Notes under the pieces: model-generated
Databases searched by the model: none
What the model saw: only the letters and a program-made list of their open reading frames with translations
What the model was told of the DNA's origin: nothing
Assembly: GCA_027486585.1 (NCBI GenBank)
Contig: JAIXOU010000007.1
Span: forward strand, 1 to 38,949
Reading direction: 5' to 3'
Length of the DNA: 38,949 nucleotides
DNA from: Verrucomicrobiaceae bacterium
GTDB lineage: Bacteria; Verrucomicrobiota; Verrucomicrobiia; Verrucomicrobiales; Verrucomicrobiaceae
Made by a program: the position numbers and the translations under genes
Part shown: positions 6,207 through 37,758 of the stretch, piece after piece
Layout: each line of letters opens with the position of its first letter
How positions within the stretch are numbered: the first letter of the stretch is position 1

Positions 6207-7730
6207 CTAGTCCGGCTTTTGAATCAATCCAAGGCTGACAAGAAAGGCTGCTGTGTCGGTCTTGGTCTTAGCGAAGGCTTCTTTACCGGAGGCTCCGAAG
6301 CTGCTGGAGTAGTAGGAGTGGCCGAGACCTTCAAAGGTGACGAGTTCGCAGCGATTGCCGGCAGCGATGAGTTTGTCTCGAAGGGCTGTCGAGTTGGCAT
6401 AGGGTACGATTTTGTCAGCAGTGGCGTGGAAGATGATCGTTGGAGGCATCTTCTTGGACATTTGATCGGGCACAGAGGCGGCGAGGGCACGTTCGGGTTT
6501 GTTACCGAAACGTGCGGGGCCACCGTAGCCGCCTAGTTTGGTATCGGACACCGGATTGATCAAGACGAGTGCTGCGGGTAACATACTGAGAGCAGGGTCA
6601 TCTTTGCCTGGACCTGCTCTAGGAATGGCGGTCCATCCAGCCACGTGACCACCAGCGGAAGCACCAACGGCGACAAGTTTGGTAGCATCGATACCAAGTT
6701 CGACTGAATGCTCAGCAATCCAGCGCATGGCCGCGCGACCATCGGCAATGCAATCCTCGGGGGTCGTGTCGAAACGTTTACGGGTGCGATAATCCGGCGC
6801 AATGCCCACCATTCCCTGCTCTGCTGCCCATGTGGCCCAGCCAATGCTTTTCTCCGGTGTGCCAGTAGCCCAACCGCCACCGAAATAACTGACTAAACAG
6901 GGACGATGATCGTCTTTGCTCCAGCCTTTGGGTTTAACAACATGCAGGCGCAATTCGACATCGCCGATCTTGCGAAACACAAAGGGCTCGCTGCCTTTGA
7001 TGCTTCGTGGTGTGACTTCTTGTTTGTCGGACAACTTTTCAGCATTCGACGCCGATGAGATCGCAGTTGATGGTTTCCAAATTTCCGTGAGAATAGGCTT
7101 CAAGACGGAAGTCATGCGGCGATAACCTTCAGGTGTGAGGTGTAGCTTATCGGAGACATAGCACTCCATCACGGGCTCACCGTCTGCGGTTTCCAACGCA
7201 GGATTCACATCGGCAAACAAGACGCCGGGAGTTGATTTGACCAACTCGATGAGGGCCTTGTTCGTCGCATCCAATTCTGCCAGCACACCTTTCTCACGCT
7301 TCTGAGGAGAGCGAATGACACTGACGATCAAAATGGTTACTCTTGGTAACGCAGCCTGCGTTTTGACAATCCATTCCTTGGTATTCTTGAGGATATCATC
7401 CGGTGTGCGCGAAGCATTGAGGTCATTGCTGCCGCAATACCACATCACGAGCGATGCTTGTGATGACGGGACGATCTTATCGAAGAAGAACAATTGATCG
7501 TCGGTTTTTGAGCCACCGAAGCCGCGATTCGTCAGCGGTAGCGGTGATAGATCATTCGCAGCGGTCGTCCATTTGCGAAATATGCTGCTGCCCACCATCA
7601 AGATGCCACCCGGTGCCGGAGTAGGCGCGGCTGCCAACTTAGCGACATCCTTCGTGTATTTGCGCTCAGAGGCATAGAGGCCTGATTGGGCTAGCGCGAG
7701 GAGTGTCAGGAAGGCAAAGAAACGGGTCAT
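6207..7730 (-). CDS. Dual esterase: SGNH hydrolase fused to alpha/beta hydrolase
   Basis: A secreted 507-residue protein (signal peptide MTRFFAFLTLLALAQSGLYA) with two unrelated hydrolase folds. Residues about 35-220 are SGNH type: block I reads VGSSIF rather than GDS (nucleophile Ser49), block II NRGFGGS (68-74), block III CGSNDLN (Gly100, Asn102) and block V DKLH (Asp194, His197). Residues about 245-505 are an alpha/beta hydrolase of the esterase/lipase type: oxyanion segment YFGGGW (282-287), nucleophile elbow GASAGG (Ser358), Asp439 in ATADKIVP and His471 in GLGHSYY. Both triads look complete, so the enzyme could remove two kinds of ester from one glycan. It lies 84 bases after the EF-hand sulfatase stop. 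Confidence 0.88.
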   Translation of the reverse strand: MTRFFAFLTLLALAQSGLYASERKYTKDVAKLAAAPTPAPGGILMVGSSIFRKWTTAANDLSPLPLTNRGFGGSKTDDQLFFFDKIVPSSQASLVMWYCGSNDLNASRTPDDILKNTKEWIVKTQAALPRVTILIVSVIRSPQKREKGVLAELDATNKALIELVKSTPGVLFADVNPALETADGEPVMECYVSDKLHLTPEGYRRMTSVLKPILTEIWKPSTAISSASNAEKLSDKQEVTPRSIKGSEPFVFRKIGDVELRLHVVKPKGWSKDDHRPCLVSYFGGGWATGTPEKSIGWATWAAEQGMVGIAPDYRTRKRFDTTPEDCIADGRAAMRWIAEHSVELGIDATKLVAVGASAGGHVAGWTAIPRAGPGKDDPALSMLPAALVLINPVSDTKLGGYGGPARFGNKPERALAASVPDQMSKKMPPTIIFHATADKIVPYANSTALRDKLIAAGNRCELVTFEGLGHSYYSSSFGASGKEAFAKTKTDTAAFLVSLGLIQKPD

Positions 7731-7814: not shown

Positions 7815-9356
7815 CTACTTGTTGGACTTCTTTCCTTTGAAGATATACTCGTCACGGCTCAAGAAGGCGTCTTTGTCAGTGTCATATTTGTTAAAGCGTT
7901 CACCGGCTGCCACGGCATCGGATTGATGGGTAGTGTAGTATTCGCGAGTCAATTGACCAGCTTTGTCTTTGTCGAGTTTGTCGAACTTGGCTGCCCGCTC
8001 CTGCTCTTCGGCGCTCATTGTGTTAGCAGGTGGCATCTCGGTGCTTTTGGACTTCATTTCGGGCTTCTTGGCGTCCCCTTCCTTCTTTTTCTTTTCCTTG
8101 TTCGCATGACGACCGGTGCCATCACCACTATCGGGAATGCCCCCGGCTGGATTGAGTTGGGCGAGAACCGCAGCTAGTTTATTACGGGCGGGATGATCAC
8201 CTGTAACGAGCTTTTCGGTGAATGGTGCATCGCTCATATCAAAGAGTTCGCCCTTCTCATTGAGCTTCCAATTAGCATCACGCACATACCACATGGCGGC
8301 GAGTTGGTTAAAGACCCACTCGCGTGGAGCACCAGCTTCACCACGAAGTTGTGGCGCGATGCTCTTTCCGTCAAAAACTGTTTCTTTCGGTAAAGTGCCG
8401 CCTGCAAGTTCTGCGAAGGTGGGCAGTAAGTCGGTGGAGTCGATCAAATCAGCGCTCACTTTGCCCTTGGGCATTTTGGCAGGCCAATTAGCGATCATTG
8501 GCACGAGACCACCACATTCAAGCATCGTGCCCTTCATGCCGGAGAGCACCTTTCCACTGATGGTGGCACGTTCAGCTTGTCCTTTGCCTGTGCCGTTGTC
8601 GCCCATGAAGATGATCAACGTGTTTTCGCGAAGCTTGAGTGCTTCGAGTTCTGCGACAAGCTTGCCGACAAGCTTGTCCATGTAGGCGATGTTGTCAGCC
8701 ATGAGATCTTGGCTGTTTGGGGCACCGTCAGGAGTGGGCAGCAGATCACCGTGCACGCTCGACATAGGATAATAAACAAAGAACGGCTGATCCTTGTGTT
8801 TTTTGATGAAGTTCATCATGTGCTCATGCATGAGGTCCGGCATGTATTCGTTGTCTGCGAGCTTCAACTCTTTGCCATTGACGAGATACTCTTCGGCTTT
8901 GCCCTCTTTCTTGTTTCGATAAACGCCGCTGCCGTTGAATCGAAGGTAGTCATCGAAACCTGATTCATCTGGATCACCCGGCAACTGGCCCCACTTGCCA
9001 ATGGAGGTCGTTTTATAGCCTGCACTCTGAAACACACGACCCAGTTGCAGCTCCTTATTTGGCATGACCATGCACGCGTCCTGATTGCTCGATCCATTAC
9101 GAAAAGCATAGCGCCCTGTCATGATCATCGCACGAGATGGACCACAAAGCGCCGCCGTAAAGCAATGCGTGAAGCGTGTGCCCTCCTCTGCCAACTTATC
9201 GATGACCGGAGTCTTATAGTTGTCCGCGCCATAACAACCAACATTCCCGATGCCGAGATCATCCGCGAGGATGAAGATGACATTAGGCTTGTCTGCAGCT
9301 TTTGTTTCCCCGAGAAGAACTACTAGAGTTGCGAAGAGAATGAGGAATCGTTTCAT
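7815..9356 (-). CDS. Type I sulfatase with C-terminal EF-hand pair
   Basis: A 513-residue secreted sulfatase (signal peptide MKRFLILFATLVVLLGETKA). The N-terminal metal motif ADDLG is at 31-35, and the formylglycine site is Cys71 in LCGPSR, the Cys type that needs oxidation by a maturase. A GDNGTG motif supplies the later metal ligands. After the catalytic domain comes a lysine-rich linker (about 420-437, KEKKKKEGDAKK) and then two EF-hand-like loops near 458-470 (DKLDKDKAGQLT) and 491-502 (DTDKDAFLSRDE). EF-hands bind calcium and are common add-ons in this superphylum. It begins 20 bases after the GH2/lyase gene stop, so both are likely cotranscribed. Which sulfate ester it removes is unknown. 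Confidence 0.92.
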   Translation of the reverse strand: MKRFLILFATLVVLLGETKAADKPNVIFILADDLGIGNVGCYGADNYKTPVIDKLAEEGTRFTHCFTAALCGPSRAMIMTGRYAFRNGSSNQDACMVMPNKELQLGRVFQSAGYKTTSIGKWGQLPGDPDESGFDDYLRFNGSGVYRNKKEGKAEEYLVNGKELKLADNEYMPDLMHEHMMNFIKKHKDQPFFVYYPMSSVHGDLLPTPDGAPNSQDLMADNIAYMDKLVGKLVAELEALKLRENTLIIFMGDNGTGKGQAERATISGKVLSGMKGTMLECGGLVPMIANWPAKMPKGKVSADLIDSTDLLPTFAELAGGTLPKETVFDGKSIAPQLRGEAGAPREWVFNQLAAMWYVRDANWKLNEKGELFDMSDAPFTEKLVTGDHPARNKLAAVLAQLNPAGGIPDSGDGTGRHANKEKKKKEGDAKKPEMKSKSTEMPPANTMSAEEQERAAKFDKLDKDKAGQLTREYYTTHQSDAVAAGERFNKYDTDKDAFLSRDEYIFKGKKSNK

Positions 9357-9376: not shown

Positions 9377-12300
9377 TTATTTGATCCAAAGCAACGGTTG
9401 CGTGATGCCGATGTTGCGCTGCACTTCGGGGTCGGTGGGGTCAGCGGGGAGTTTTTGCCAGAGATCGAGATACTTTTGTTCGCCGAGCATGAGACCGCCG
9501 AAGACGAGGTTCGGTTGTCGGGCAGGCCAGCCTTCCCAGGCATTAACATCGGGGGGAAGCGTCCACTTCGATTTGTCGGCTAGGAAGGGATACAGAAAGG
9601 CAATGGCCTTGGCAATGCTTTTGCCGTCCTTGGTTTCGTAGGTCCAGAGGTTGTCTTCCGTGGTGCTCAGGACGTTGCAGAGCATGGCCATGTTATCGAG
9701 TTGGAAGATGGAGTAGCCGTAGGGTTTGGTGCGGGCGAGCTCAAGCGGGAAACCGCCGTCTTCGGCCATCTGCTTGGCCACGAAGACTTCTTTGAACTTG
9801 GTCCGGCAGAGCCCAAGTTTTTCCTGATCACCAATGAAGTCGGCAAAGACGGCTAATTGAAGATGGAAAGCGACGGCGTGGTTGTTTTTCGCGTTGGCTT
9901 CTTCATTGCCGTTCTTGCTGGTGCTCATCCACTCGGCAAGTTCGCGGAACCATTGACGCAAGTCTTTGCCCATGTCGGCTGGGAAGGCTTTGGATTTTTC
10001 CATCGCTTTCACCGCAGCGGGAATCTCGATGATATGCAGCGTGTCGATGATGCCAATGCCGCGTCCTGGGGACACTCCAGGGACGGCCTGAGCGAAGTTG
10101 AGACTCGGGTTCATGCGGGTCTTTGCATCAAGAAAAAAGACCTTCAGCAACTCTGCAGCCTTGATCACATACTTGTCTTCACCCGTGATTTTGTAGGCTG
10201 CAGCGAGTGCAGCCACAGAGTCGCGCAGAGCTTTAACCGCCATGCGATGCGCGACAAAGTTCTCGGGGTTCGTCTCGCCATCGCGCTTGATGTATGGCAG
10301 TCCGTTGGGCTTTGAGGAATCGGGCCACCAGTAGTCACCGTTGGAATAAAAGTCGTTAGGACCGCCTTCGCTGAGTTTCGCGGGAGTTGTAGTGATGGAG
10401 ACAGGTTTCTGCTCCAAAGCAGCAGTTGAGGCCCTCAAAATGCGTTCGCGGTCAATCGCGGCAACATCAAGCGTTAGCTTAGGAGATGGCGATTTGGCCT
10501 CTGAAGTTGTTTTTAGTACTGCTTTTGGCTTTTCACCGCCAGGGGCTGGTGCACGAGCATCGGTAACGTATTTAAACTGCGGTTTGCGACCTTCGGATGA
10601 GACGGAGACACAGATTTTGTAGTTGGTAATCTCGCACTGAATGGTAGCACGACCGTTGTAAAGTTGCACAACGCGTGAAGCGGTTGAGGTGCCTAAATTA
10701 TCGATCAATCGACCATCACCCGCCAAGCCAAAGCGCACAATATTGGAGCAGTCGAGACACGGCACATCGTTGGTGTCGAGCATGCGCACTTCCAAGGTCG
10801 CGATACCGTCTTTCTGCGCGATCTCCTCAAGCTTGAGTTTCGCAGGCTTGCTCCATTTCTTCGTTTGATAACCGACGGTAAGGTCATCACTCACGCCCTT
10901 ACCAACGGCGCGGAGTTGATTTTGCCCCTCATTGAGCTTCACCATCCAATGCAGACCTGCAGCCGGATAATCGCTAACGTTGCGCTTCTTCACGCCGACC
11001 GATTTGCCGTTCACAAAAAGCTCCACCTCTGCGCAGTTGGAGTAAACTTTCACTTCTTTTTCTTCGCCCTCCTCACCCCAGCGCACGGGCCAACCGTGAC
11101 CGAAGATGTGGATCATGGGCTTCTCCGCCCAGTAGCTCTGGAAGATGTAATAGGTCTCCTTCGGTGTGCCATCACGCTCGACCACGCCCTTCTGATTCAC
11201 GCGCGGCACCGGGTTCTCAGGGCGCAGCGGTGTCGCAAAATCTTTGAAAATCCACGCCGCGCTGCCGGTGAGCCAAGGCATGTCTTCCTGCTCTTTAAGA
11301 TGCCAGTCAAAGAGATTGCACATGTAGCTCTCTGACCAGTCACCATCTTTCGACATGCGAACCTTGCCGCCAGTCCCCTTGTAGGCCTTACCCTTCTCGG
11401 CCGTGCCTTTGCCCGTCTCGACTTTCGTCACCATCTTCTCAGGATCTTCGGCAAATCGATGAGCATGGCTGTCGCCGCCCCACTCGGCGTGAAAGAAGTG
11501 CTTGGTGTCTTTGAGCGCCTTCTCAGCAGCGGCTTTGTATTCGGTATAGCGACCAGAATACCAGCCTGCCCAGATGCTTGGCGAGTAAATGTCCACGATG
11601 TCCTTGCAGAAGTCGCAGCGGCGAATGCAAGTCGGACGCGAAGGGTCAAGTTCACGCGAGAGGTTATTCAACTCCGTCATCAGCGCACGAATCTTATCTT
11701 TATCGAAGACCTCGAAATCGCCCGGCCAATCATTCTCATTGCCCATGCCCCACATGATAATCGAGGCATGATTGCGATGCTGATCAATCATCGCGCGCAA
11801 CATGTCCTTCGCCTGCCTCTGATAAGCCTCACCACCGATGCCACCACGGCACCAAGGCACCTCTTCCCACACGAGCAGCCCAAGTTCGTCACACAGATCA
11901 AGCACCAACGGAGCCTGTTGATAATGCCCAAGGCGCACGAAATTCGCGCCCATGTCTTTAATCATCGTCAGCGTCTTTCGCACCACATCATCCGGCACTG
12001 CTGCGGCGACTCCGGCATGGTCTTCGTGGTAGTGTGTGCCTTTAAGGAGCAAACGCTCGCCGTTAAGCTTGAAGGGTCCGTTGTCCACCCATTCGGTGCT
12101 GCGAATGCCGAAGCGCTCGGTGATCGTTTGCTCGCCATGCTTGGACTTGAGAGTGACTACACAGCGATACAGTGACGGTGACTTGGGTGACCAGAGCACC
12201 GGCTTAGAAAGATCAAATGAGAATAATCTTGCCTCACCAGTCCAGGGCTGGGTCGTTGGAGCTGCCACATCAATAGACATTGGCTGACCAGATGGATCAA

Positions 12301-12985
12301 TGATAGTCAGACCAATACTGACTTTGTCTTCAGCGTTTGTTGGGTTCAATAACCTTACCTCGACACTCACATTCGAGCTGTTGCCATTCAACACTGGCCT
12401 GACATGTACCCGCTCCAACGAAATCGTAGGCACATAAACCAAGCTAACGTGACGATACAATCCGCCGTAGCGATTGAAGTCGCTGAGGTCAGAGGGAATG
12501 CTCTCCGCATCACGTGAGTTATCGCACAGCACCGCGATGGGAATCTCGCCTTTGAGGGCCTCGTTCTTCATCGCCTTTGCCGCAGCGTCTGTGATGTCCA
12601 CCGTCCACTCATCATAGCCACCGACGTGCTCACCGACCTTCTCAGTGAAAACAAACACCTGCGACTTCTGCCCTGCGCCTTCAAAGTGCAGCAACGTGCG
12701 GCCAGCAGGATAAGGATTCTCAATCTTTAGCTTGGTGCGATACCAGCCTGGGCCTTGATAATACTTCACATCGGGATCCACCGCATCACGTCCATTGAAA
12801 CAATGCGGCAACGTCACTTTCGACCACGCCACATTGTCGCTCGCCGCATCACCACGCCAAACTTCCCACGTGCTGCCAAGCGTGCCCTGATAATACTCCC
12901 AGCCCTCGCTGAGACGTTGCGTTGTTTCGGCAGCGATGAGATTTGCACAGGTAAAAGCAAACAGAAAAAGAAGAAGTCGGACCAT
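9377..12985 (-). CDS. GH2 glycosidase fused to alginate-lyase-like domain
   Basis: A 1202-residue secreted protein; the ATG at 12985 is chosen over a TTG two codons upstream and opens the signal peptide MVRLLLFLFAFTCANLIA. Residues about 25-190 form the GH2 sugar-binding domain (PGWYRTKL, RYGGLYRHV), then an immunoglobulin-like domain, then the TIM barrel with acid/base Glu417 in GMGNEND and probable nucleophile Glu501 in HAEWGGD, followed by further beta domains to about 810. A proline-rich joint leads to residues about 840-1202, which match the alginate lyase fold (Pfam Alginate_lyase, PL5/PL38-like): FYSNGDYWWP (879-888), the NNH motif (1034-1036) and a YGYSIF segment with candidate catalytic Tyr (1089/1091). 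GH2 includes beta-glucuronidases and beta-galactosidases; with a uronate lyase attached, a uronic-acid glycan is the likely target (inference). Confidence 0.9.
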   Translation of the reverse strand: MVRLLLFLFAFTCANLIAAETTQRLSEGWEYYQGTLGSTWEVWRGDAASDNVAWSKVTLPHCFNGRDAVDPDVKYYQGPGWYRTKLKIENPYPAGRTLLHFEGAGQKSQVFVFTEKVGEHVGGYDEWTVDITDAAAKAMKNEALKGEIPIAVLCDNSRDAESIPSDLSDFNRYGGLYRHVSLVYVPTISLERVHVRPVLNGNSSNVSVEVRLLNPTNAEDKVSIGLTIIDPSGQPMSIDVAAPTTQPWTGEARLFSFDLSKPVLWSPKSPSLYRCVVTLKSKHGEQTITERFGIRSTEWVDNGPFKLNGERLLLKGTHYHEDHAGVAAAVPDDVVRKTLTMIKDMGANFVRLGHYQQAPLVLDLCDELGLLVWEEVPWCRGGIGGEAYQRQAKDMLRAMIDQHRNHASIIMWGMGNENDWPGDFEVFDKDKIRALMTELNNLSRELDPSRPTCIRRCDFCKDIVDIYSPSIWAGWYSGRYTEYKAAAEKALKDTKHFFHAEWGGDSHAHRFAEDPEKMVTKVETGKGTAEKGKAYKGTGGKVRMSKDGDWSESYMCNLFDWHLKEQEDMPWLTGSAAWIFKDFATPLRPENPVPRVNQKGVVERDGTPKETYYIFQSYWAEKPMIHIFGHGWPVRWGEEGEEKEVKVYSNCAEVELFVNGKSVGVKKRNVSDYPAAGLHWMVKLNEGQNQLRAVGKGVSDDLTVGYQTKKWSKPAKLKLEEIAQKDGIATLEVRMLDTNDVPCLDCSNIVRFGLAGDGRLIDNLGTSTASRVVQLYNGRATIQCEITNYKICVSVSSEGRKPQFKYVTDARAPAPGGEKPKAVLKTTSEAKSPSPKLTLDVAAIDRERILRASTAALEQKPVSITTTPAKLSEGGPNDFYSNGDYWWPDSSKPNGLPYIKRDGETNPENFVAHRMAVKALRDSVAALAAAYKITGEDKYVIKAAELLKVFFLDAKTRMNPSLNFAQAVPGVSPGRGIGIIDTLHIIEIPAAVKAMEKSKAFPADMGKDLRQWFRELAEWMSTSKNGNEEANAKNNHAVAFHLQLAVFADFIGDQEKLGLCRTKFKEVFVAKQMAEDGGFPLELARTKPYGYSIFQLDNMAMLCNVLSTTEDNLWTYETKDGKSIAKAIAFLYPFLADKSKWTLPPDVNAWEGWPARQPNLVFGGLMLGEQKYLDLWQKLPADPTDPEVQRNIGITQPLLWIK

Positions 12986-13127: not shown

Positions 13128-13277
13128 CTAGGCAGTTTGAGCCAGCACCAAAAGGTGGTCACGGAGCCTAAGAAAGATGGTGGTCACGTGATAGCTGACG
13201 GCTAAGTCATCGCCGATCTCTTGCACATTTGTAGAAACAAGTTCGTTCAAATCGGCCTGCGCCTCACTTCGCTTATT
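13128..13277 (-). pseudogene. Short protein-like open frame, probable gene remnant
   Basis: In the gap after the GH99-like gene, the minus strand is open for 49 codons, ending at TAG 13130-13128. It has no ATG; a TTG at 13250 and a GTG at 13226 are the only usual alternative starts. The translation has ordinary protein composition (for example EAQADLNELV and VTTIFLRLRDHLLVL) and reads like the end of a gene whose beginning is gone. I do not recognise the family; a decayed mobile-element protein or an intergenic repeat unit are possibilities. It overlaps the stop codon of the GH99-like gene by a few bases in another frame. Confidence 0.3.
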
Positions 13278-15168
13278 TCACCGCCTCTTCCACAAACTTC
13301 AACAGTAGCGGAAAGGCAGGTTCGGGCATCTTGCCATGGTCGAAGCCATCAAGCTCATGCATTGTCGTATGTTGGTGACCCGCGATTTTCATCATGCGCC
13401 AGAAGTACGCACACTCTTCGTAGCGGCCCATGTGCTCCTTTTCGCGGTCGCCAGTGACAAGCAAGATGGGCGGGGCGTTTTTGCGAACGTGAAACAGCGG
13501 CGCGAGATCATCAATGATTGGCTGTGTTTCCTCGATACCTCGCTCGTCTCGGATCGTGAAATGCGTGATCACCTGGGGGCTGAGAGGGATGAGTCCAGCA
13601 ATATTGTCTGCATCGACACCATGTTTGCCAAGCCAATGCTTATCGAGTCCGCACATGAGAGTAAGGTAGGCTCCAGCGCTGTGACCGCTGACAAAGATGC
13701 GCTTGGGATCACCGCCAAACTCAGCAATGTGTTTGAAGGTCCACGCGATGGCTGCGGCGGCATCCTCAATGAAAACGGGTGACTTCACGTCGGGACTGAG
13801 TCGGTAGTTCGCGCTGACGACGGCGACCCCTTGATTGCGTAGCGGCATTGGGATGGAGCGCTCGCCCTGAGTCAATCCGCCGCCGTGAAACCAGATGACC
13901 GTAGAGAAAGGCTTTTTTGTAGCGGGCGCGTAAACATCAAGACGACAACGCTGGTTTTGTTGGGCTGTGATCCCTTTCTCGTCGCGGTAGAGCAATTCGC
14001 GAGTGAGGTAATAGCCTTCGTCGATGATTTGATGACCGAGTTCGCGACTCACACTGGCAAGGAGAGCTTCGGCTTCGGTGAACTTTGAATCAAACATCAA
14101 TGTGGAAGCTTGATCGAGCTTCGTGGCATCACCGCCTCGTTTGCGGAGTTGATAAAGCATGACTGGCAGGCGCAGATCAGCCGGATTGCCACAGCGGGGA
14201 AGCTTTTCAAGAAGGCGGAAACCATTGCTGCGTGTCGGCTCGATCATCGTTCCCTCGCCATAGTCATTCCAAGTGGCAATCTGAATGAGCGGTGCTTTGC
14301 TTGCGCGAGCTTGAGCAAGTGATTCAGACAGCGTAAGCCCATTCCGCGAGGCGATACTGCCGTAACTGGCATGCAAACCAGCCTGTTGATAGATATCTTT
14401 AAAACCAGGAAAAGCGGTGGCGATAAAGGGCGTCTTTTCCGAGTAGATGAGATCGAGTTCCTTCTTCCACTGATCTGGTTTGAGCGATTTGCCACCCCTA
14501 ACTGGAGGCCAAGCAAAAGCACCATCAAGTCCGTTTGACTTCACCAGATGCGGAAGACCAAACACGAACGGTTGACTCCTCAGATCAAACTTCCACTGCA
14601 AATGCTGCGGCCCGAAGACCAGCAACAGCGGCCGGTCATCTTGCCGCAAGTAGCTCGGATCGGTGAAGAAGTGCTCCTCAGCCCAATGGAGATCTTGGGC
14701 CGCCTGCTTCAGGTCTTCGCCGCTTTTGAGAGACTTCACCGACTGATCCTCGTAGCACACAGCGAAGCTCAAGCCGGCTTTTTTGAGCCATGGAATGAAC
14801 TTCTGAGTGTTGCGATGATTCATTGCATGATCATTAAGATCACTCGTGCCATACCAGTCGATGATGACACCATGAAGACCAGCGATTTTCATTAGCAAGG
14901 CGTGACATTCCAGCGCGTGATCATCACCCGAGTCATACGGCCCGATCAGCGGGTAATCATGCGCGGCGATCTTCCGCTGATCATCCCATTTCGTCTGTTC
15001 CGGATCAAAGTGATTCAGGGTCCAATGCCAGCCCCACTCGCCGCTCACAGTCTTCGTAGCATACCATGGCATGTAATGAACGAGCAGACGCGGCTCTTCT
15101 GAAAAAGCGAATATAAATGGGCCCAGAGCTAGGAGGATGAGAAGACAGCGCATAAACGGGACGTCCAT
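13273..15168 (-). CDS. GH99/GH71-like glycoside hydrolase fused to alpha/beta hydrolase esterase
   Basis: A 631-residue protein. An ATG at 15168 opens the frame; the ATG at 15153 (MRCLLILLALGPFIFAF) would give a tidier signal peptide and may be the true start. Residues about 27-345 resemble the GH99/GH71/WbsX-like barrel: HYMPWYAT (31-38), GVIIDWYGTSD (100-110) and TWNDYGEGTMIEP (299-311), where acidic residues would be catalytic. Residues about 385-631 are an esterase-type alpha/beta hydrolase with HGGG (428-431), GHSAG with Ser497, Asp574 in VTGDRE and His611 in GFDHG. Known GH99 enzymes cut alpha-mannosides and GH71 alpha-1,3-glucans, but most relatives in this superphylum are uncharacterised. 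The pairing suggests cleavage and deacylation of the same glycan. Confidence 0.85.
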   Translation of the reverse strand: MDVPFMRCLLILLALGPFIFAFSEEPRLLVHYMPWYATKTVSGEWGWHWTLNHFDPEQTKWDDQRKIAAHDYPLIGPYDSGDDHALECHALLMKIAGLHGVIIDWYGTSDLNDHAMNHRNTQKFIPWLKKAGLSFAVCYEDQSVKSLKSGEDLKQAAQDLHWAEEHFFTDPSYLRQDDRPLLLVFGPQHLQWKFDLRSQPFVFGLPHLVKSNGLDGAFAWPPVRGGKSLKPDQWKKELDLIYSEKTPFIATAFPGFKDIYQQAGLHASYGSIASRNGLTLSESLAQARASKAPLIQIATWNDYGEGTMIEPTRSNGFRLLEKLPRCGNPADLRLPVMLYQLRKRGGDATKLDQASTLMFDSKFTEAEALLASVSRELGHQIIDEGYYLTRELLYRDEKGITAQQNQRCRLDVYAPATKKPFSTVIWFHGGGLTQGERSIPMPLRNQGVAVVSANYRLSPDVKSPVFIEDAAAAIAWTFKHIAEFGGDPKRIFVSGHSAGAYLTLMCGLDKHWLGKHGVDADNIAGLIPLSPQVITHFTIRDERGIEETQPIIDDLAPLFHVRKNAPPILLVTGDREKEHMGRYEECAYFWRMMKIAGHQHTTMHELDGFDHGKMPEPAFPLLLKFVEEAVK

Positions 15169-15355: not shown

Positions 15356-18300
15356 TCACTGAATCAAACGAAACCGATGTGGCTTTGCATCATCGAAATG
15401 GACATTAAAAGTCTGGCTCCAGGTCTTGGTTTCAGCATCATAGTTAGTCTGCCAGAAGTCTTTGCCATGAATGCTTTGATCAAGCGGCTTATCGTCGACG
15501 AACAAGGTCAAACCACGGCAACTGGTGAGGCTATTGAAAGTAACAGGCACGTAACCGAGACTACCCGTGAGGATAAACTCGGCATTATTGCGATGAGTGC
15601 TCACCCTAATCGCTGGCCAAGTGCGTTCTAACTTGCCTTGAATCATGTGGATATGGCGACCGTTGCCCAGAGCCTCACGCTGAATCATCCGCCAAGTGTT
15701 TCCTTCTTTGATCAAGGCAGACCGCAAAGCCTCATTGGGACCATAATAATCCGCATGGGATTGAGGAATGACGATGTGCTCAATCGTGGCTTCAAGAAAG
15801 TCCCCAGCTTCAAATCTTGTCAGTCCAAAGGGTGACACCAAATCAAGGGTAGAGGCATCTTGATTGTGTCTAGTCACACCGTGCTCGGCAATCCATGGGG
15901 CTGCATCCTTGCCACCGAGTCGGGCTTTCCATGAGCGGATGACGATACCTCGATTGGCTCCTGCGCCGCCTTTTTCAGCATGTCGAAGTTCGCCTTCGTG
16001 CAGAGAGATCCATGGAAGACGTCCGGTGCATTCGAGAGGCTCAGTGCGGTAAGTGTTGCCGCCCCATTGAGTATTCCACTCTTTGATGAGACCGGTTTCG
16101 TTGCCGAATGCCATCTTCCGCTCGCTACTAGAAGTGTAGGTATCCGCACCGATTTGAAAAACGACGAAGCGTGAGAAGTCGGTAGCCTTTTGAACATCGA
16201 ATCGCACCTGATAAACGCCACGTACAATGTCATCGGTACGGGCCAAGCTGACAGTCGTGGAATGCGTGATACCTTTGCCGATGCGACCTGCATAAGTGAC
16301 TTCGGTGAGACATGGACCTTGCTTGTGATACGTGGTGCGCATGGCGCTGTGCGGCACGCGCCCGCCAGTGGCATCAAAGAAGCGGAGGAAATCGCCACCA
16401 CCGACGTTGTTCGTCCAACCAAAAGGTTTTCCATCGCCCATGGATCGGACCATGAAGGCCCTCACATCGGTGATGCTGCAGTTGGCTTGGGCTTGATCTG
16501 GCTCGTAGCAAATTGTCTCTCCAAAGGAGCCAAGTGCGCATTGATCCCAAAGTTGGTTGCTCCCCCAACCGATGAGACAAAGCTGAGCGTGAGATGCGGC
16601 AGCTACGCCACCCCAGTGGCCATAGGCGAGCGTGAGTTCGAGTTCGACGTCCGCTTTGGCTGGCAGGCGCACTTGTGAGTCACCGTGGAACCATTGCCCC
16701 GCGTACACGCCATTCTCGGGTTCGTTGTGCCAATTCTTACTCAGTTGCACGGGGATGCCGGTGGGATTGCCATCTGCATCACGAAAAATGGCCGAGATGC
16801 CCGTAATTGCCGTACCAATACGCTGACGAATACCGCGCTCGCTTTTCTCAAACATCAGGCGCGCTATCTGCTCGGTGTCGGTGGGATTCGAAAGAGCTAC
16901 CTTCACGCGCTCAACGGCATCATTGCTCGGATTGATGCCGCCGGGAGGAGCGATGGGTTCGATGCCATCAAGATTGACGCGATGCCTACTGAGCGCAGGT
17001 TCATAAATGACGGGCCGCACTTCGCTGGTTGCCTTCTCAGTCGCTATGACGATAACCGGACTCATTCTTTCAGATGCTTTGCCAGTCACAGGATCAAGCA
17101 CAAGCGACACTTCATTTTCACGACCATCGGTCCATAGTTGATCCGCTGGCACGTCCACGTGTTGCTGCAGTTTGCTCTTGTCCGTCGTAAGGCAGATGTC
17201 CATGGCGACGTGTTTCCACTCTTCGCGCAGCTTGGTCATGGAAGCTTTGCCTTGGCCATTGAACGTCCACTCCATTAACGGTTTCATACTCGGCTTTGGC
17301 ACCTCTGGATGCATCCAACGCTCCCGCAATTCTTCCAATTTCAGCGCTCGATCATAGAAGCGGATCTCATCCACCACGCCGCGAAAGTAGTAGCCATCGC
17401 CTGTGCCATCGTTCCGTCGACCAAAGGCGAGCCCGCCCTTTCCTGGCAGGCGCTTCTTACCAATCTTTGTCTCAGCTTCGAGGCTACCGTTGACATAAAG
17501 CCGAAGCTTGTCGCTATCGAAGCTCATGGCCAGATGATTCCACGAATCGATCTTCAATGAATTGCGCTGCTCAGGCTTCGCTACCAGCGCATTCGCCGCA
17601 CCACCGCCGATGTTCATGAGCGCTCTCGGCTGACCGTTGGCGATCATGAAACCGATATTGCCATTGACCGCCTCGTTGTAGCCCGCGCACATGAGCCATG
17701 GAGAGTGAAGCCCAGCCTGATAGTCCTGAGGAACGAAGACCCACAACTCCATCGTGAACTGCTCAGCAGCGAGCGATGCGCTTTCAGAAATCTCCAAATG
17801 ATTTTTGCCATTGAGCCCGAACCCACCGCCCACGCGCCCAAACGAAGACTCCCCTTCCCGAATCGGAAGCAACCCAGGACGCGCTGCGAGGATCAGCCCC
17901 AGTCGATCCGGCCACGCAGCTGTCTCAAAGCGAGCCTCGATATTCAAAAGCGAACCATCATCTGACCTAAACTCCAAGTTCGTCACATCCGCACGCTGGA
18001 AAAAGTGCCCTGACTCAATCAAGCGTGGGCCCGTGAACCTCGCCCATTTACCACCTGCTTTGCAACGATAACTCTTGCCATCGACGGTCATGTTCAAAGC
18101 CAACTCTGCCGCAGGAAGATTGTGCCAATCATCCTTTAATCCGCCCACAGAACCGAAATGCGGAATGCTCAGTGTCTCTGTGTTCAGTGCCATCGCATAG
18201 CGTCCTGTTTGCACAACGCGTAGCCAGGGTGCTGTAGGAATGGTCCCCGGAAAACCTTCAGCCCAGTACATCTGCGTTTGGTCTTCGACATGAGGCATCA

Positions 18301-18379
18301 GAGGTGAAACATCCATCGCATGCAGAGTTGCAATTGAACAGACGGCAAAGACACAAAGGAAAGAAAGAAGGCGAAGCAT
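15356..18379 (-). CDS. Large secreted protein with LamG-like domain, function unknown
   Basis: A 1007-residue protein with signal peptide (MLRLLSFLCVFAVCSIATLHA). Residues about 180-350 form a LamG/concanavalin-A-like jelly roll: FTMELWVFVP (208-217), WNHLAMSFDSDKLRLYVNGS (280-299) and a GVVDEIRFYDRAL segment (334-346), the classic signature of this carbohydrate-binding fold. The rest, before and after, is beta-rich (for example SFGETICYEPDQAQ, GFGLNGKNHLEIS) and matches no family I know. Such proteins sit in verrucomicrobial glycan loci and may be binding proteins or unrecognised hydrolases. It lies about 190 bases after the response regulator stop, a gap wide enough for its own promoter. 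Confidence 0.82.
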   Translation of the reverse strand: MLRLLSFLCVFAVCSIATLHAMDVSPLMPHVEDQTQMYWAEGFPGTIPTAPWLRVVQTGRYAMALNTETLSIPHFGSVGGLKDDWHNLPAAELALNMTVDGKSYRCKAGGKWARFTGPRLIESGHFFQRADVTNLEFRSDDGSLLNIEARFETAAWPDRLGLILAARPGLLPIREGESSFGRVGGGFGLNGKNHLEISESASLAAEQFTMELWVFVPQDYQAGLHSPWLMCAGYNEAVNGNIGFMIANGQPRALMNIGGGAANALVAKPEQRNSLKIDSWNHLAMSFDSDKLRLYVNGSLEAETKIGKKRLPGKGGLAFGRRNDGTGDGYYFRGVVDEIRFYDRALKLEELRERWMHPEVPKPSMKPLMEWTFNGQGKASMTKLREEWKHVAMDICLTTDKSKLQQHVDVPADQLWTDGRENEVSLVLDPVTGKASERMSPVIVIATEKATSEVRPVIYEPALSRHRVNLDGIEPIAPPGGINPSNDAVERVKVALSNPTDTEQIARLMFEKSERGIRQRIGTAITGISAIFRDADGNPTGIPVQLSKNWHNEPENGVYAGQWFHGDSQVRLPAKADVELELTLAYGHWGGVAAASHAQLCLIGWGSNQLWDQCALGSFGETICYEPDQAQANCSITDVRAFMVRSMGDGKPFGWTNNVGGGDFLRFFDATGGRVPHSAMRTTYHKQGPCLTEVTYAGRIGKGITHSTTVSLARTDDIVRGVYQVRFDVQKATDFSRFVVFQIGADTYTSSSERKMAFGNETGLIKEWNTQWGGNTYRTEPLECTGRLPWISLHEGELRHAEKGGAGANRGIVIRSWKARLGGKDAAPWIAEHGVTRHNQDASTLDLVSPFGLTRFEAGDFLEATIEHIVIPQSHADYYGPNEALRSALIKEGNTWRMIQREALGNGRHIHMIQGKLERTWPAIRVSTHRNNAEFILTGSLGYVPVTFNSLTSCRGLTLFVDDKPLDQSIHGKDFWQTNYDAETKTWSQTFNVHFDDAKPHRFRLIQ

Positions 18380-22140: not shown

Positions 22141-23682
22141 TCACTGAGGTAACTCAGGCTTAACAGGAGCACCGCTGGTCAGATCTTTGGGATACGCCGC
22201 TTTTTGCTGTTCTAGCTCTACGATGAGGCTTTTCATCAGACGCTTGAGTTCTTCAGGTTTGGAGGCAGCCAGATCATTTTGCTCAAACGGATCCTCTTTG
22301 AGATGAAAGAGCTGATAGTGACTACCACCAGAGACCTTCGTCGGAAAGTAGTGATAAATCACCTTCCATTCACCATCACGATAGCTGGTCCAATATGAAG
22401 TCCGATGAGGTGAATGCGGATAATGCATCAGGAAGGATTCATTTCGAGAGGCATCTGGTTGCGCTGTGAGAAGACTCTCAAGATTCTTTCCATCCACTGG
22501 GTGTGTAGCTGGTGCTTCTTGACCAACGAGATCTAGGATGGTGGGAAACATATCATACACTGCAGCTTGTTGGCTTTGAATCATGCCAGAGGCAATGGGC
22601 ATGCGTTTTTGATTGGCATTGCCAGAGTCAGGCTTAGCCCAAGCCGCAATGAAGGGTACACGCATGCCGCCTTCATAATGGGAGCCTTTTTTACCACGAA
22701 GCGGAGCAGCACAAGCCACGGCGTGCTCGTTCCCCAGTGGGGCATCACTGCCATTATCGCCAAGAAAAAAGACCAGCGTATTGTCGGCAACTCCAAGCGT
22801 GTCCAAATGGTCCAGCATGTCCCCCAGTGATTTGTCCATACCTTCCACAAGCGTGGCAAAATTCTGCGCCTGCTGCGTTTGACCGCTCTTGGTGTAGTGT
22901 TCTGTAAAACGTGGATCTGACTGGTGCGGACTATGAACCGCATATTGAGCAAAGTAGAGGAAGAACGGTTTATCTGACTTCACGGCATCGCTGAGATGCG
23001 CTTTGGCTTCCAGCGTTAAAGCTTCCGTTAAAAAGATGTCCTGACCATGGTATTTCTCTAACCCTAAAACGGCCGCCCCTGCATTCTTTGCTTTCTTGCC
23101 CTTCCTAACCTCTGGCAGACCACCAAAGTTTTTAGTTCCATAGTAGCTGCCAGGAGCACCGATCGATCCACCGGCGACATTGATATCAAAACCAATGGTT
23201 TGTGGATTAGCCGCCTCAAAGGCACGTGGGGCGAAGTGGCCTTTGCCAACATGAATTGTGCGATAGCCTTTGGCCTGCAATAGACTTGGCAGCGTGACAT
23301 CACCCTTTTTCAAACCTTGCCAGTTCCACTCGGCTGGACCTTGAGTGCCCGCATTGTTGGTATCTGGATTGATCCAATTCGTCGTACGATGACGTGCTGC
23401 ATTCTGCCCAGTCATGATGGAGATACGAGTCGGAGAACACACGCTCATCGCACAGAAGTTATTGAAGCGAATACCGCGAGCAGCCAAACGTTCCATATGC
23501 GGCGTGCGATAGTAATCGTTCAGTGGATAACGCTTGGCCTTGCCATTCGAATCCGTAAGAAAGGGCAAGGAGGTATCCATCACTCCCATGTCATCCACAA
23601 GCATGATGATGATATTGGGTTGAGACGCAGCGGAGGCAAAAGCAGACAGAGCAAGGAGAAGAACAAAAGTGAGTGATTTCAT
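22141..23682 (-). CDS. Type I sulfatase (arylsulfatase A-like)
   Basis: A 513-residue secreted sulfatase (signal peptide MKSLTFVLLLALSAFASA). Metal ligands VDDMG (29-33), formylglycine site Cys82 in VCSPTR, the HVGKGHF segment (144-150) with catalytic Lys/His, HSPH in the central strand and LGDNGSD later on. A basic insertion, RKGKKAK, sits at 193-199. It hydrolyses sulfate esters of sugars after its Cys is converted to formylglycine by an enzyme encoded elsewhere. It is the last of the sulfatase run and begins 19 bases after the previous stop. The precise S1 subfamily and sulfate position cannot be read with confidence. Confidence 0.92.
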   Translation of the reverse strand: MKSLTFVLLLALSAFASAASQPNIIIMLVDDMGVMDTSLPFLTDSNGKAKRYPLNDYYRTPHMERLAARGIRFNNFCAMSVCSPTRISIMTGQNAARHRTTNWINPDTNNAGTQGPAEWNWQGLKKGDVTLPSLLQAKGYRTIHVGKGHFAPRAFEAANPQTIGFDINVAGGSIGAPGSYYGTKNFGGLPEVRKGKKAKNAGAAVLGLEKYHGQDIFLTEALTLEAKAHLSDAVKSDKPFFLYFAQYAVHSPHQSDPRFTEHYTKSGQTQQAQNFATLVEGMDKSLGDMLDHLDTLGVADNTLVFFLGDNGSDAPLGNEHAVACAAPLRGKKGSHYEGGMRVPFIAAWAKPDSGNANQKRMPIASGMIQSQQAAVYDMFPTILDLVGQEAPATHPVDGKNLESLLTAQPDASRNESFLMHYPHSPHRTSYWTSYRDGEWKVIYHYFPTKVSGGSHYQLFHLKEDPFEQNDLAASKPEELKRLMKSLIVELEQQKAAYPKDLTSGAPVKPELPQ

Positions 23683-23701
23683 AGACTAAAGGTAATCAGG
23701 T

Positions 23702-25210
23702 TTATTCAGGAATGGCATCGCCGCGTTTCACGGTCTTCCCTTCCCAGATGGCTTCATCGGTTTTAGGGTCATAAGTGAGGACACGACTGGCACTATTGGG
23801 TGCGGGAGGGAGATCGACTTTAGGTAGCCATTTTTTATGATCGGCAATGATGGACACATACTCGGAATTGCCAGCTAGATTGTGCCATTCGTTGGGATCC
23901 TTCTGCATGTCATAGAGTTCTTCAGAACCGTCCGCGTAATGAATGTAGCGCCAACGTTCGCTGCGAATGCCATGGTTGCCTTGATTATGTGTCGTGATGG
24001 CAGGACGCTCCTTCTTTGACGAGGCGTTTTTGAGTTGCGGCAAAAGACTAACTCCCTCCAAATCATCGCGTCCAGGAAGTCCTGCCAACTCAATGAGAGT
24101 AGGATAGATATCCATGAGTTCGGCAGGCTGAGTGCAACGTTGACTAGGCTTGATACCAGGCCCAGCAAAGATCAGTGGCACCTTAGTGCCGCGATCCCAG
24201 AGCGTATTTTTACCGGTGATGCCCTTTTCACCGAGATGCCAACCATGATCACCCCAAAGAACGATGATGGTATTATCAGCAATTCCAGCTTCATCCAAAG
24301 CGGTCATTAATCGGCCAATTTGAGCATCGACAAAACTCGTGCATGCTAGGTAACTGCGCACCAGATTGCGCCATTGGTTATTTTCTTTGACCCACTTCAG
24401 ACGCGGCTCTGGAAGCTCCCAATGCAGATTCCAGGAAAAGCGCGGTGTGTCGTCTCGATCTGTTTCAAGAACCTTTGGCAAAACGCTGTCATCATCAGGA
24501 TACAGATCAAACCACTTTTGCGTGGCATAGCATGGGACATGCGGCAGAAAGAACCCAGCGGCGAGAAAGAAAGGCTTCTCTTTTGGAGCTGCTTTAATCT
24601 GGTCTACTGTCCAACTAGCGACCTGATAATCACCTTTCCCCGTATCATCATTGTCAAGAGGCCAGACACCCCAGTCCATCAATGGATTGTTGCCCATTGG
24701 AGTTGCAGGAATGAGCTTCTGGGGTGGCTTGCTACCAACACCGCCATAAGGAGCAGTCACTTGAAATTCTGGTGTTTGAGCTTCTTTAGCACGTCCCTTG
24801 CCCTTTCCCTTCCCTGCCCCACTGCCAGTGCCGCCATGATAAATTTTACCCGTTGCAGCGGTGCTGTAACCATGGTTGGCAAAGTGTTGCGGCAAAGCCA
24901 CACGATCTTTCAATGCGGACACGGTGCGAAACCAAGGCGACAGACCATATATTCCTGTCGAAGAGGGTCTCAAACCAAGCAGAAGACTCGTGCGGGATGG
25001 ATTGCATAACGGAGCATTGCAATGGGCATTCAAAAACGTCGTGCCACGTGCTGCAAGTTTATCCAAATGAGGTGTCTTCGCCATCGGATGACCGCCCATG
25101 TGACCGATCCAGTCATTTTGATCATCAATGGCGATGAAAAGGATGTTAGGTTTATCAGCCGCCAAGAGGGGTAGACTGAAGAATGTGAATAAGACCAAGA
25201 GGGATTTCAT
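23702..25210 (-). CDS. Type I sulfatase, iduronate-2-sulfatase-like (S1_7 type)
   Basis: A 502-residue secreted sulfatase; the ATG at 25210 (MKSLLVLFTFFSLPLLAA) is chosen over a TTG seven codons upstream. Features: AIDDQND (27-33), formylglycine Cys69 in LCNPSR, then a GLRPSSTGIYG segment typical of iduronate-2-sulfatase relatives, FFLPHVP in the core, and WGDHGWHLGEKG carrying late metal ligands. A glycine/lysine-rich insertion (about 131-145, GAGKGKGKGRAK) follows GKIYHGG. Members of this group remove sulfate from uronic acids or other sugars in glycosaminoglycans and algal polysaccharides. It begins 27 bases after the preceding sulfatase stop. Another gene of the same type lies at 32692-34212. 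Confidence 0.92.
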   Translation of the reverse strand: MKSLLVLFTFFSLPLLAADKPNILFIAIDDQNDWIGHMGGHPMAKTPHLDKLAARGTTFLNAHCNAPLCNPSRTSLLLGLRPSSTGIYGLSPWFRTVSALKDRVALPQHFANHGYSTAATGKIYHGGTGSGAGKGKGKGRAKEAQTPEFQVTAPYGGVGSKPPQKLIPATPMGNNPLMDWGVWPLDNDDTGKGDYQVASWTVDQIKAAPKEKPFFLAAGFFLPHVPCYATQKWFDLYPDDDSVLPKVLETDRDDTPRFSWNLHWELPEPRLKWVKENNQWRNLVRSYLACTSFVDAQIGRLMTALDEAGIADNTIIVLWGDHGWHLGEKGITGKNTLWDRGTKVPLIFAGPGIKPSQRCTQPAELMDIYPTLIELAGLPGRDDLEGVSLLPQLKNASSKKERPAITTHNQGNHGIRSERWRYIHYADGSEELYDMQKDPNEWHNLAGNSEYVSIIADHKKWLPKVDLPPAPNSASRVLTYDPKTDEAIWEGKTVKRGDAIPE

Positions 25211-25237
25211 CGGTTTCAAAAAAGCAGGCAAGAATGG

Positions 25238-27046
25238 CTAAGGCAAAAGGGTTAATGTCAGACGACGAACGTCCATGACGGAATGACCAGGAATTTCTAG
25301 AGCCTGCAAGGTCAATGGGCCGTGACCTGCAGGCAGCGTCATCTCACCTAGCTTCAAGGTGTGGAAATCCTTCATCTGACTTTCACCATCCGGACGGGGC
25401 AATGTGTCCTGATTCGTGTTTAGGGGAGGATCCCAACCGGGCTGCACTTTGGCCTGTAGTTTGGCATCTAAAAAGCTCAACTCGACGATAGAGCCAGCAT
25501 CCACCAGCTTACACGTATAATCGACGGTCACTTCATATCGACCAGCCGTCTGCACTTTTAGCAACCAGACCATGCAATCTTCCTTCTTTGTCCAATTCAT
25601 AAAATACGAACAATTGGGCGCACTACTACTACGCTTCACTTGACCTCGAGGCTCGCCATCACGCGCGGGTAACATGGTGATAGGAAACTCAGGATAACCC
25701 ACAGGAATCGGTCGCTGATCGACCGCATTCCCTTGCCCCTTCTTTTTGTCACCCTTTGGCTTCCCTTCCGAACGTTCACCTAGAACGTCCGATCTCCAAG
25801 CTTTGACGGCCTGCGTCAATGTTGCAACCAAAACAGGCGCTTGATCATTGATCGCTTGGGTTTGTCCGGGATCAGCCACCATGTCATAAAGCAGGCCTGC
25901 ATGATCGAGTCGATGCGTTTGAGTTCGAACACTCACGGCACCGCCCCAAGTGGAGAAGATCATGCGCTCAGGCCACTCAGTCTTCTTGTTGAAAAGTAGC
26001 GGACTAAGATCACGTCCATCCAAAGGTTTATCACCGACGCGTTTGATTCCCGCCAAAGAGATGAGAGTTGGCATCAAATCAATAGCACCAGCAATTTGAG
26101 TCATGGTATGACCGGCTGGCAACTTATTTGGCCAGCGCACGTAACAGACCGAGCGAACACCCCCTTCATCCGTGGTCGCTTTCTTGCCTTTCATGCCGCC
26201 TGTCCAGCGCATGCTATTGGGACCATTATCAGAGAAATAGACAATGATCGTGTTTTCATTCAAGCCATGATCCTTGAGCTTTGCCAGCACACGACCAACG
26301 TTCATATCCTGATTCTCGATCATGGAAAGCGCACAGCGAGTTTCATCCAGCACTTCCTTCTCAGGATCAGTGCCCCTGAGCTGAATCGGTTTATCTTTAA
26401 ACCGCGCCCAGTTCTCAGCTGGCGATGCCCAAGGAGAATGCGGCGTGGTGAATGGCACATAACAGACGAAAGGTTTATCTTTGTTCTTCTCAATGAAGTT
26501 GAGAGCCCGATCTGTGCAAACATCGACAATGTAACCTTGGGTTCGGATCATGCGACCATTCTCCTCAAGAGGCGCATCAAAGTATTCCCCCCAATGCCCT
26601 GCGCTGTGACCGAAGTATTCATCAAAGCCACGTGCCATCGGATGATAAGGCCACTGACTTCCGTTGTGCCATTTCCCAAAAGCACCTGTGGCATAACCAG
26701 CGGCTTTAAAAGCGTCAGCCAGGGTTTTTTCGTCTAAATTCAAACGTTCTTGTCCAGTCGACACTCCACGCACTCCGCCTCGGGGATAATAGCGTCCCGT
26801 GAGAAATTCAGCCCGAGTTGGAGAGCAAACAGGACACACATAAAAGCGATCCAGCGAAACACCACCTTTCGCAATGGAGTCGATATTTGGCGTGCTCACC
26901 TGGGTATTGCCCGAATGACTGTAATCCCCCCAACCGGCATCATCGGCAAGGAAAATAACAACGTTGGGAGGGGCTGAGCATAAGGGCGCGCTCAACAGGC
27001 CCAAGATAAGTATAAACAATGGAATGGATTGAAACGGAAGCTTCAT
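25238..27046 (-). CDS. Type I sulfatase with C-terminal beta-sandwich
   Basis: A 602-residue secreted sulfatase (signal peptide [20 protein letters not shown]). LADDAGWGD (33-41), formylglycine Cys74 in VCSPTR, FGKWHNG (123-129), TPHSPW (201-206) and FSDNGPNS (271-278) mark a complete catalytic domain. A lysine-rich linker (428-440, [13 protein letters not shown]) joins it to a C-terminal region of about 140 residues that looks like a carbohydrate-binding beta-sandwich ([29 protein letters not shown]). Its start codon overlaps the stop of the gene before it (ATGA, 27043-27046), so the two are translationally coupled. The substrate is unknown. Confidence 0.92.
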
Positions 27047-28599: not shown

Positions 28600-28615
28600 C
28601 AGAAAGAAAAAGAGT

Positions 28616-30115: not shown

Positions 30116-30249
30116 GGGGGATGAGCCAACGATCACGCAGGCACAAATCTTCCTCAAAAAGCATTCAGCCTTATGCCCTCGTGGGACGACCATTCGAGAC
30201 GTTCTCATTCGTAATGATGAGACTTCATTGTGGCGCTTTGATTTCACTT

Positions 30250-31737: not shown

Positions 31738-31792
31738 GGTCAGTGGGTAGGTGGACGAGGCGATTCACGAAAACACATGGTGAAGAAGGCAT

Positions 31793-34212: not shown

Positions 34213-34219
34213 GAGAATG

Positions 34220-36121: not shown

Positions 36122-36130
36122 GGTTGGAAC

Positions 36131-36162: not shown

Positions 36163-36228
36163 GAAACGCCCCATGCACTGCCACCTTTCCAGAAAACCTA
36201 TTTCACTGAAGAAACACGACCAACGGAC

Positions 36229-37665: not shown

Positions 37666-37670
37666 GTGGG

Positions 37671-37756: not shown

Positions 37757-37758
37757 GC

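Follow-up and report, generated by a model that had tools for sequence, protein, structure and literature searches.

A putative secreted fusion of a GH2 β-glucuronidase-type half and a PL38-type lyase half in a Verrucomicrobiaceae bacterium

The window analysed here is a stretch of 38,949 nucleotides from a Verrucomicrobiaceae bacterium (assembly GCA_027486585.1, contig JAIXOU010000007.1, positions 1 to 38,949), and the gene in question encodes a GH2 half and a PL38-type lyase half on one chain. A single 1202-residue fusion protein had been described in an earlier note made from the letters alone, in which the strand was not stated; the protein was found to be encoded on the minus strand by one uninterrupted open reading frame (ORF). 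Its parts and the residues compared in alignments of 36 GH2 and 36 PL rows are given below, pLDDT being the predicted local distance difference test.

9377..12985, minus strand: GH2-PL38-type fusion gene, a single ORF of 1202 amino acids plus stop with an ATG start and no internal stop
12929..12985, minus strand: putative signal peptide, residues 1-19, read from sequence alone
10571..12925, minus strand: GH2 β-glucuronidase-type half, residues 21-805, comprising GH2_N, GH2, GH2_C, DUF4982 and a stretch in common with 6d7j
11735..11737, minus strand: E417, GH2 acid/base (GNEND), kept in 36 of 36 GH2 rows and aligned to 6d7j
11483..11485, minus strand: E501, GH2 nucleophile (HAEWGG), kept in 36 of 36 GH2 rows and aligned to 6d7j
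11189..11197, minus strand: NxK motif N597-Q598-K599, with N597 and K599 in 36 of 36 GH2 rows
10490..10546, minus strand: flexible linker, residues 814-832, pLDDT below 50
9380..10465, minus strand: PL38-type lyase half, residues 841-1202, with PF05426 at 871-1141 and matches in sequence and fold
10331..10333, minus strand: Y885, equivalent to BoPL38 Y91, kept in 35 of 36 PL rows
10280..10282, minus strand: D902, equivalent to BoPL38 D108, kept in 36 of 36 PL rows
10088..10090, minus strand: Q966, equivalent to BoPL38 Q173, kept in 36 of 36 PL rows
9878..9883, minus strand: N1035-H1036, equivalent to BoPL38 N242-H243, both kept in 36 of 36 PL rows
9713..9718, minus strand: G1090-Y1091, equivalent to BoPL38 H297 (changed) and Y298 (kept), with Y1091 in 36 of 36 PL rows

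Three GH2 domains and DUF4982 span residues 64-695, and the Pfam Alginate_lyase domain (PF05426, a family that also takes in PL5) lies at 871-1141 of the same chain. On the Pfam scores both halves are far above chance (264.5 bits against a cut-off of 22.2 for PF05426, 90.6 against 21 for GH2_C, 57.5 against 23 for GH2, 36.5 against 28 for GH2_N and 54.4 against 23.9 for DUF4982), which excludes chance motifs as the source of the domain calls. A hydrophobic stretch at the N-terminus (MVRLLLFLFAFTCANLIAA) is compatible with secretion and the protein is probably secreted; with an alternative in-frame TTG start at 12991 it would be two residues longer. The AlphaFold2 model had a mean pLDDT of 85.9 and a predicted template modelling score (pTM) of 0.65. 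The only stretch between the halves with a pLDDT below 50 was model residues 795-813 (protein 814-832), and two further such stretches lay inside the GH2 half (model residues 509-513 and 565-573). A scan for promoters and terminators gave results at chance level, and a phage origin of the fusion was ruled out as no PHROG match was obtained at E up to 0.001.

The occurrence of the two halves was surveyed in the best 80 of 170 candidate stretches from species genomes, in which flanks did not exceed 6 kb and contigs were often short. Both halves shared one ORF in 35 of the 80 loci (34 in the GH2-PL order and one, L089, reversed), some of these copies ending at contig edges, and were separate ORFs of one locus in a further 20. 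PL without GH2 was observed in six loci, a count that, like that of loci with GH2 alone given further below, understates linkage on account of the short flanks and contigs. Among the fused copies are those of four named Sphingobacterium strains, of a Phycisphaerae bin and of a KSB1 bin; the fusion is hence not confined to its own genome but occurs in Verrucomicrobiota, Planctomycetota bins, Sphingobacterium and the KSB1 bin, although some record names of metagenome-assembled genomes (MAGs), for example those labelled Akkermansia or Kuenenia, may be wrong. Genomes of the same genus held three full-length fusions at 82–87% identity without an internal stop, together with three partial ones. The earlier note had singled out a reading error near codons 815-840 as what could undo the fusion, and many loci do come from MAGs, the PL part of one (L045) stopping after only 57 residues. 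The same-genus, Sphingobacterium and other fused copies nevertheless exclude a frameshift or an assembly error that joined two genes, and the probability left to such an artefact is practically nil.

One set of 54 sequences, that of the window included, was picked by hand; near-copies and fragments were left aside, as were tandem PLs and L089 with its reversed order. Neighbourhoods were counted over 70 loci having a GH2 match above 380 bits over at least 450 residues, which leaves aside L024 (a 97% copy of the window), the GH2 fragments L087, L092 and L097 and the six PL-only loci. At least 8 changes between the fused and unfused state were needed on the GH2 tree (71 rows) and 13 on the PL tree (84 rows) as drawn, these being quick LG+G4 runs with long branches on which gain and loss of the fusion are indistinguishable. 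Compared to seven fused relatives, the ratio of nonsynonymous to synonymous substitution rates (dN/dS) was 0.058–0.098 for the GH2 half and 0.043–0.112 for the PL half, rough values since dS exceeded 1 in many pairs, while the stretch 801-845 around the linker changes faster with an amino-acid identity of 0.44–0.75. Both halves are accordingly under purifying selection and appear to have retained function. Fused modules often have a binding role, and one half could in principle have become a binding module upon loss of catalysis; with dN/dS low in both halves and all compared catalytic residues kept in both except the one aligned to BoPL38 H297, this is very improbable.

The earlier note had placed the GH2 catalytic residues at Glu417 and Glu501 of a complete GH2 domain, and both are found there. 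By sequence the best solved relatives of this half are 6d7j, at 1003 bits, and 6d1p, at 958 bits, which according to their PDB titles are the Parabacteroides merdae β-glucuronidase (GUS) and B. uniformis β-glucuronidase 3; looking up the literature by these entry codes gave no paper. A fold overlay on 6dxu_A, a second P. merdae GUS entry, gave a Z of 42.0 and a root mean square deviation of 1.9 with 752 residues aligned. In structure alignments the half was 53–55% identical to these two gut enzymes over roughly 750 residues, nearly their full length, and like the fusion they carry both catalytic glutamates and the NxK motif; the solved chains differ in that they stop where the fusion linker starts and have no lyase domain. 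NxK is the carboxylate-binding mark of glucuronate recognition. The motif and the degree of identity indicate that the GH2 target is probably glucuronic acid, as for the lyase, rather than an unrelated side group. While the fold, both glutamates and the NxK motif are seen directly in the alignments and the model, the substrate would follow from relationship, and the half is probably of the β-glucuronidase type. The proposal that a hydrolase-type and a uronate-lyase-type domain share one chain therefore stands, whereas the role of side-group clipper that the earlier note assigned to the GH2 domain is not supported. A further comparison is offered by NCBIfam NF049877 (GH2 β-glucuronidase/β-L-arabinofuranosidase), which by name also couples a GH2 β-glucuronidase to a second catalytic activity; there, however, the second activity is a hydrolase and not a lyase, and the fusion scores 175 of 1800, far under the cut-off. 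For P. merdae GUS, matched here to the solved entry through the organism name, the cited part of PMC6351562 describes a 41-residue insert near the active site and argues that C-terminal domains give such non-L1 enzymes a preference for larger polysaccharides that contain glucuronide.

In the C-terminal half the motifs GDYWWP (883-888), NNH (1034-1036) and YGYSIF (1089-1094) lie where they had been noted, and the predicted structure adopts a lyase fold, which removes the other doubt raised in the earlier note: model residues 820-1183 overlay BACOVA_01668 (3nnb) at Z 37.4 and the alginate lyase BoPL38 (8bdq) at Z 36.8. These two, in their several forms, make up the 7 distinct sequences that matched the lyase half in the PDB at E up to 1. 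BACOVA_01668 (3nfv, 3nnb) is 35–36% identical over roughly 350 residues and, like the fusion, has Gly at the position of BoPL38 H297, but is a stand-alone chain; a literature search by its name and entry codes returned nothing relevant to that protein. BoPL38, also stand-alone, scores 174 bits by sequence and is 30% identical over 343 residues aligned by fold. Its active-site positions Y91, D108, Q173, N242, H297 and Y298 were taken from PDB titles and mapped by counting along the alignment, and Y298 and H243 are named in the cited part of PMC13169297. Six of the seven positions compared are kept in the fusion and H297, which the entry titles give as a mutated position, is alone replaced, by Gly. 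Across the 36 PL rows this position is 25 times Gly, 6 times Ala, 3 times Ser and 2 times His, and R1085 is kept in all 36. With no His next to the catalytic Tyr, the fusion departs from the BoPL38-type subgroup of broad alginate lyases.

A tree of 84 PL domains separated a branch of 56, PLa, that contains all 31 C-terminal fusions from a branch of 28, PLb, that consists of companion lyases (21 of which share a locus with a GH2 gene) and the reversed fusion L089. Two additional PF05426 genes in the genome of the window both group with PLb; the one in L021 (contig 130) adjoins a sulfatase and a metallophosphatase, homologues of which adjoin PLb and the fusion in another fusion-carrying genome, G033. 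BACOVA_01668 and BoPL38 scored 298 and 230 bits against the L021 protein and 242 and 174 bits against the fusion lyase. As both score higher against this PLb protein than against the PLa lyase of the fusion, their substrate cannot simply be transferred, and these comparisons set the lyase half, PL38-like as it is, in a separate branch away from BoPL38. Tandem PLb-PLa double lyases were also observed immediately downstream of an unfused GH2 gene (L064:8538-10694, with similar arrangements in L057, L062, L063, L065, L066 and L069), and in L085:3753-7139 a PL38-type lyase is joined to a GH3 enzyme.

The C-terminal domain had been called alginate-lyase-like in the earlier note. An alginate lyase in the PL half, with the GH2 half acting on an unrelated or minor residue, would agree with the name of PF05426 and with the six conserved BoPL38 positions, Y298 and H243 of PMC13169297 among them. 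The "alginate" in PF05426 is however a domain name only, His at the H297 position is confined to 2 of the 36 PL rows, BoPL38 favours the paralogous branch over that of the fusion, the GH2 half carries a glucuronate motif, and no PL6, PL7 or PL17 was found among the neighbours scanned, which are part of all neighbours. With relatives located beside uxaC, GH88 and kduI, as described below, the simple alginate reading was rejected, and an alginate enzyme is improbable.

Glucuronic acid (GlcA) and mannuronic acid are alike in configuration at C4 and C5. A tyrosine-driven syn route on GlcA is expected by analogy to BoPL38 as described in the cited part of PMC13169297; the fold and the residues of the lyase half are there to be seen, and the reaction on GlcA would follow from them in the same manner. 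According to the cited parts of PMC13027841 and PMC11790493, PL38 members cut glucuronan or glycosaminoglycans (GAGs), the former source listing two lyases each for alginate and for glucuronan as well as RiPL38, which acts on hyaluronan and chondroitin sulfate (HA/CS). Amuc_0778 (with the GH105 enzyme Amuc_0863), RiPL38, CUL-I and TpPL38A are comparable to the fusion, by description, as PL38 lyases on β-GlcA polymers, and differ in that none is described as GH2-fused in the passages cited.

The GH2 domain was also found in the company of GH88. A GH88-like domain was present in 14 of the 70 GH2 loci, within the GH2 ORF itself in five, and a different query added a GH88-like stretch in L059, raising the count to 15 of 70. 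In L076 and L091 GH88 is C-terminal to the same GH2, at the position that the PL occupies in the window fusion, it precedes GH2 on the chain in L085 and L088, L089 carries PL-GH88-GH2 on one chain and in L082 GH88 is joined to PLb. The best PDB match of the L098 GH88 was the GH88 protein 3wiw (372 bits), followed by unsaturated glucuronyl and chondroitin disaccharide hydrolases. GH88 takes off the unsaturated uronate left by a lyase. As the three enzymes are joined in at least four domain orders, these unions are strong evidence that lyase, unsaturated-glucuronyl hydrolase and β-glucuronidase serve one pathway.

Plasmids provided further contexts, chosen from 1802 records with a match that were mostly partial, 3 of them covering at least 80% of the query. 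On a Catenovulum adriaticum plasmid the GH2 and PL genes are adjacent, located between uxaC and a TRAP transporter on one side and kduI on the other, GH88 and a TonB receptor being close by; they are 38% and 39% identical to the fusion halves, with all compared catalytic residues intact. A Hymenobacter volaticus plasmid carries SusC/D-type genes, a PL, GH88 and, between these last two, a frame-broken GH2 stretch (L138:16023-19947) that is missing from the gene table and has intact relatives elsewhere. The arrangement in Asticcacaulis is looser, with two kduI, GH88, GH3 and two PLs. These contexts support free and unsaturated glucuronate as the products.

Taken as a whole, the results are best explained by a bifunctional fusion with predicted β-glucuronidase and lyase activities towards a β-glucuronate polymer, irrespective of its exact type, and we assign this explanation a probability of about 0.72. 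In this reading a secreted enzyme would attack a β-linked, glucuronic-acid-rich polysaccharide. The PL38-type domain would cleave the chain internally at 4-substituted glucuronate, through a β-elimination in which Y1091, next to N1035 and H1036, serves as acid/base, and the GH2 domain would hydrolyse β-D-glucuronic acid off saturated non-reducing ends, the flexible linker holding both active sites on one chain. In some relatives GH88 would act as a third enzyme that strips the unsaturated cap made by the lyase and so provides fresh ends for GH2. The polymer would most naturally be glucuronan or a glucuronan-like chain, although this particular identity is tentative and falls somewhat short of an even chance.

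GH2 and PL38 are known families; their union on one chain is an architecture that is well supported and widespread and apparently uncharacterised. No GH2-PL38 protein was named in the titles or abstract openings of the open-licence literature on PL38, BoPL38 and fusions, in line with the remark in the earlier note that no characterised enzyme with this pairing was known to it. Taken with the joining of this GH2 to GH88 elsewhere, the fusion would connect three steps in the degradation of one glucuronate-rich polymer. It further puts forward a testable natural substrate for a β-glucuronidase branch whose P. merdae member shows hardly any action on small glucuronides, and draws attention to a lyase branch in which no characterised member was found.

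Several observations weigh against a bifunctional glucuronate enzyme. The GH2 half missed the NCBIfam equivalog cut-offs (286 of 950 for LacZ4 and 308 of 900 for GalA), and P. merdae GUS is very slow on p-nitrophenyl glucuronide, with a kcat of 0.088 per s in the cited part of PMC6351562. The relative placement of the halves is not fixed by the model, given its pTM of 0.65 and no accompanying domain-to-domain error. GH2 had no PL match in 19 of the 80 loci, and a PL8 gene is near in 6 of the 70, the one examined being nearest xanthan lyase, which would fit a side chain rather than a glucuronan backbone. Finally, the 97% complete genome of the window gave no match to GH88/GH105 (PF07470, with positive controls in three named genomes), none to KduI, for which positive controls worked, and none to UxuA; UxaC is present (666 bits). 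The usual enzymes hence do not explain how unsaturated or free glucuronate is used in this genome. Some GH88-like relatives reach only 30–49 bits with PF07470, so that a divergent GH88 could escape, and the L098 GH88 protein as query had no match in 56 genomes in a run without positive control. The unsaturated products may either be left to other organisms, or be handled by a different enzyme, or by the GH2 half itself.

The last of these amounts to a relay on one chain, in which the GH2 half takes the place of GH88 and hydrolyses the 4,5-unsaturated glucuronyl end just made by the attached lyase. Besides the genome of the window (G000), GH88/GH105 was not found in the fusion carriers G003, G010, G017 (77% complete) and G022 (52% complete), and GH88 in L076 and L091 occupies the very position of the PL, both in favour of such a relay. 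However, PF07470 does match in two other carriers of the fusion, G024 and G033, GH2s with GH88 already at their side show no change in E417, E501 or NxK, and ordinary β-glucuronidases are not known to process unsaturated uronides. The relay is accordingly improbable, and the stricter claim that carriers thereby need no GH88/GH105 slightly more so. If true, it would represent a new GH2 activity and a lyase-hydrolase tandem that takes a glucuronate polymer to monomers on one chain.

The nature of the polymer was considered further from the neighbouring genes, two of which lie downstream of the fusion.

7815..9356, minus strand: S1 sulfatase, 20 bp downstream of the fusion, with homologues of at least 47% identity in 16 of 70 GH2 loci
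6207..7730, minus strand: GDSL plus BD-FAE esterase, the GDSL part of which recurs in 5 of 70 GH2 loci

Similarity to this sulfatase extends to 28 of the 70 loci when distant general sulfatases are included, only 16 of these reaching 47%. The window holds ten S1-type sulfatase genes within 39 kb, all on the minus strand (at 7815, 22141, 23702, 25238, 27043, 28616, 30250, 32692, 34220 and 37759), with six of these lying back to back. The array (7815-9356 and 22141-38925) suggests attack on a sulfated polysaccharide. PL8 genes (L028:9637-13692, with homologues in L027, L031, L034, L037 and L063) share loci with GH2-PL or with separate GH2 and PL genes, and none was found in the genome of the window. 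The L028 PL8 carries He_PIG and MBG domains and scores 525 bits against xanthan lyase, 314 against chondroitin AC lyase and 254 against hyaluronate lyase. Judging by the sulfatase, esterase and PL8 neighbours, the polymer in Verrucomicrobia probably bears sulfate or acyl groups and could be branched.

Sulfation bears on a variant within the preferred reading, namely that the same two activities are directed at a GAG-like polymer, whether of hyaluronan or of chondroitin type or a bacterial mimic of these. The lyase would then act at GlcA beside an N-acetylhexosamine and GH2 would take terminal saturated GlcA, while sulfatases and esterases clear the way. The ten sulfatases of the window, the kinship of the L098 GH88 to chondroitin disaccharide hydrolases, the action of RiPL38 on HA/CS (PMC13027841) and that of Amuc_0778 with Amuc_0863 on all GAGs tested but heparin sulfate, as far as the cited passages go, are consistent with such a target. 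On the other hand, no hexosaminidase family was found in the portion of the neighbours that was scanned, the PL8 examined is closer to xanthan lyase than to either GAG lyase, and the Catenovulum stretch has no annotated sulfatase, its gene table being incomplete. A GAG-like polymer is consequently rather unlikely, less so than alginate.

Other proteins of the window also combine domains. Two-domain neighbours on the minus strand are a GH99/WbsX-like domain with a BD-FAE esterase (13273-15168) and GDSL with BNR repeats (326-2323). The minus-strand gene at 15356-18379 encodes a secreted-looking protein of 1007 amino acids in which Pfam recognises only a LamG domain (191-351). Its model is mostly β (pLDDT 83), with PDB fold matches only for the LamG-like part, the other parts having been barely tested. 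Long homologues at 48–95% identity occur within the order, and the remaining 800 residues are well conserved, with many invariant Gly, Trp and His across 24 aligned sequences including that of the window, consistent with a possible unassigned carbohydrate-active family.

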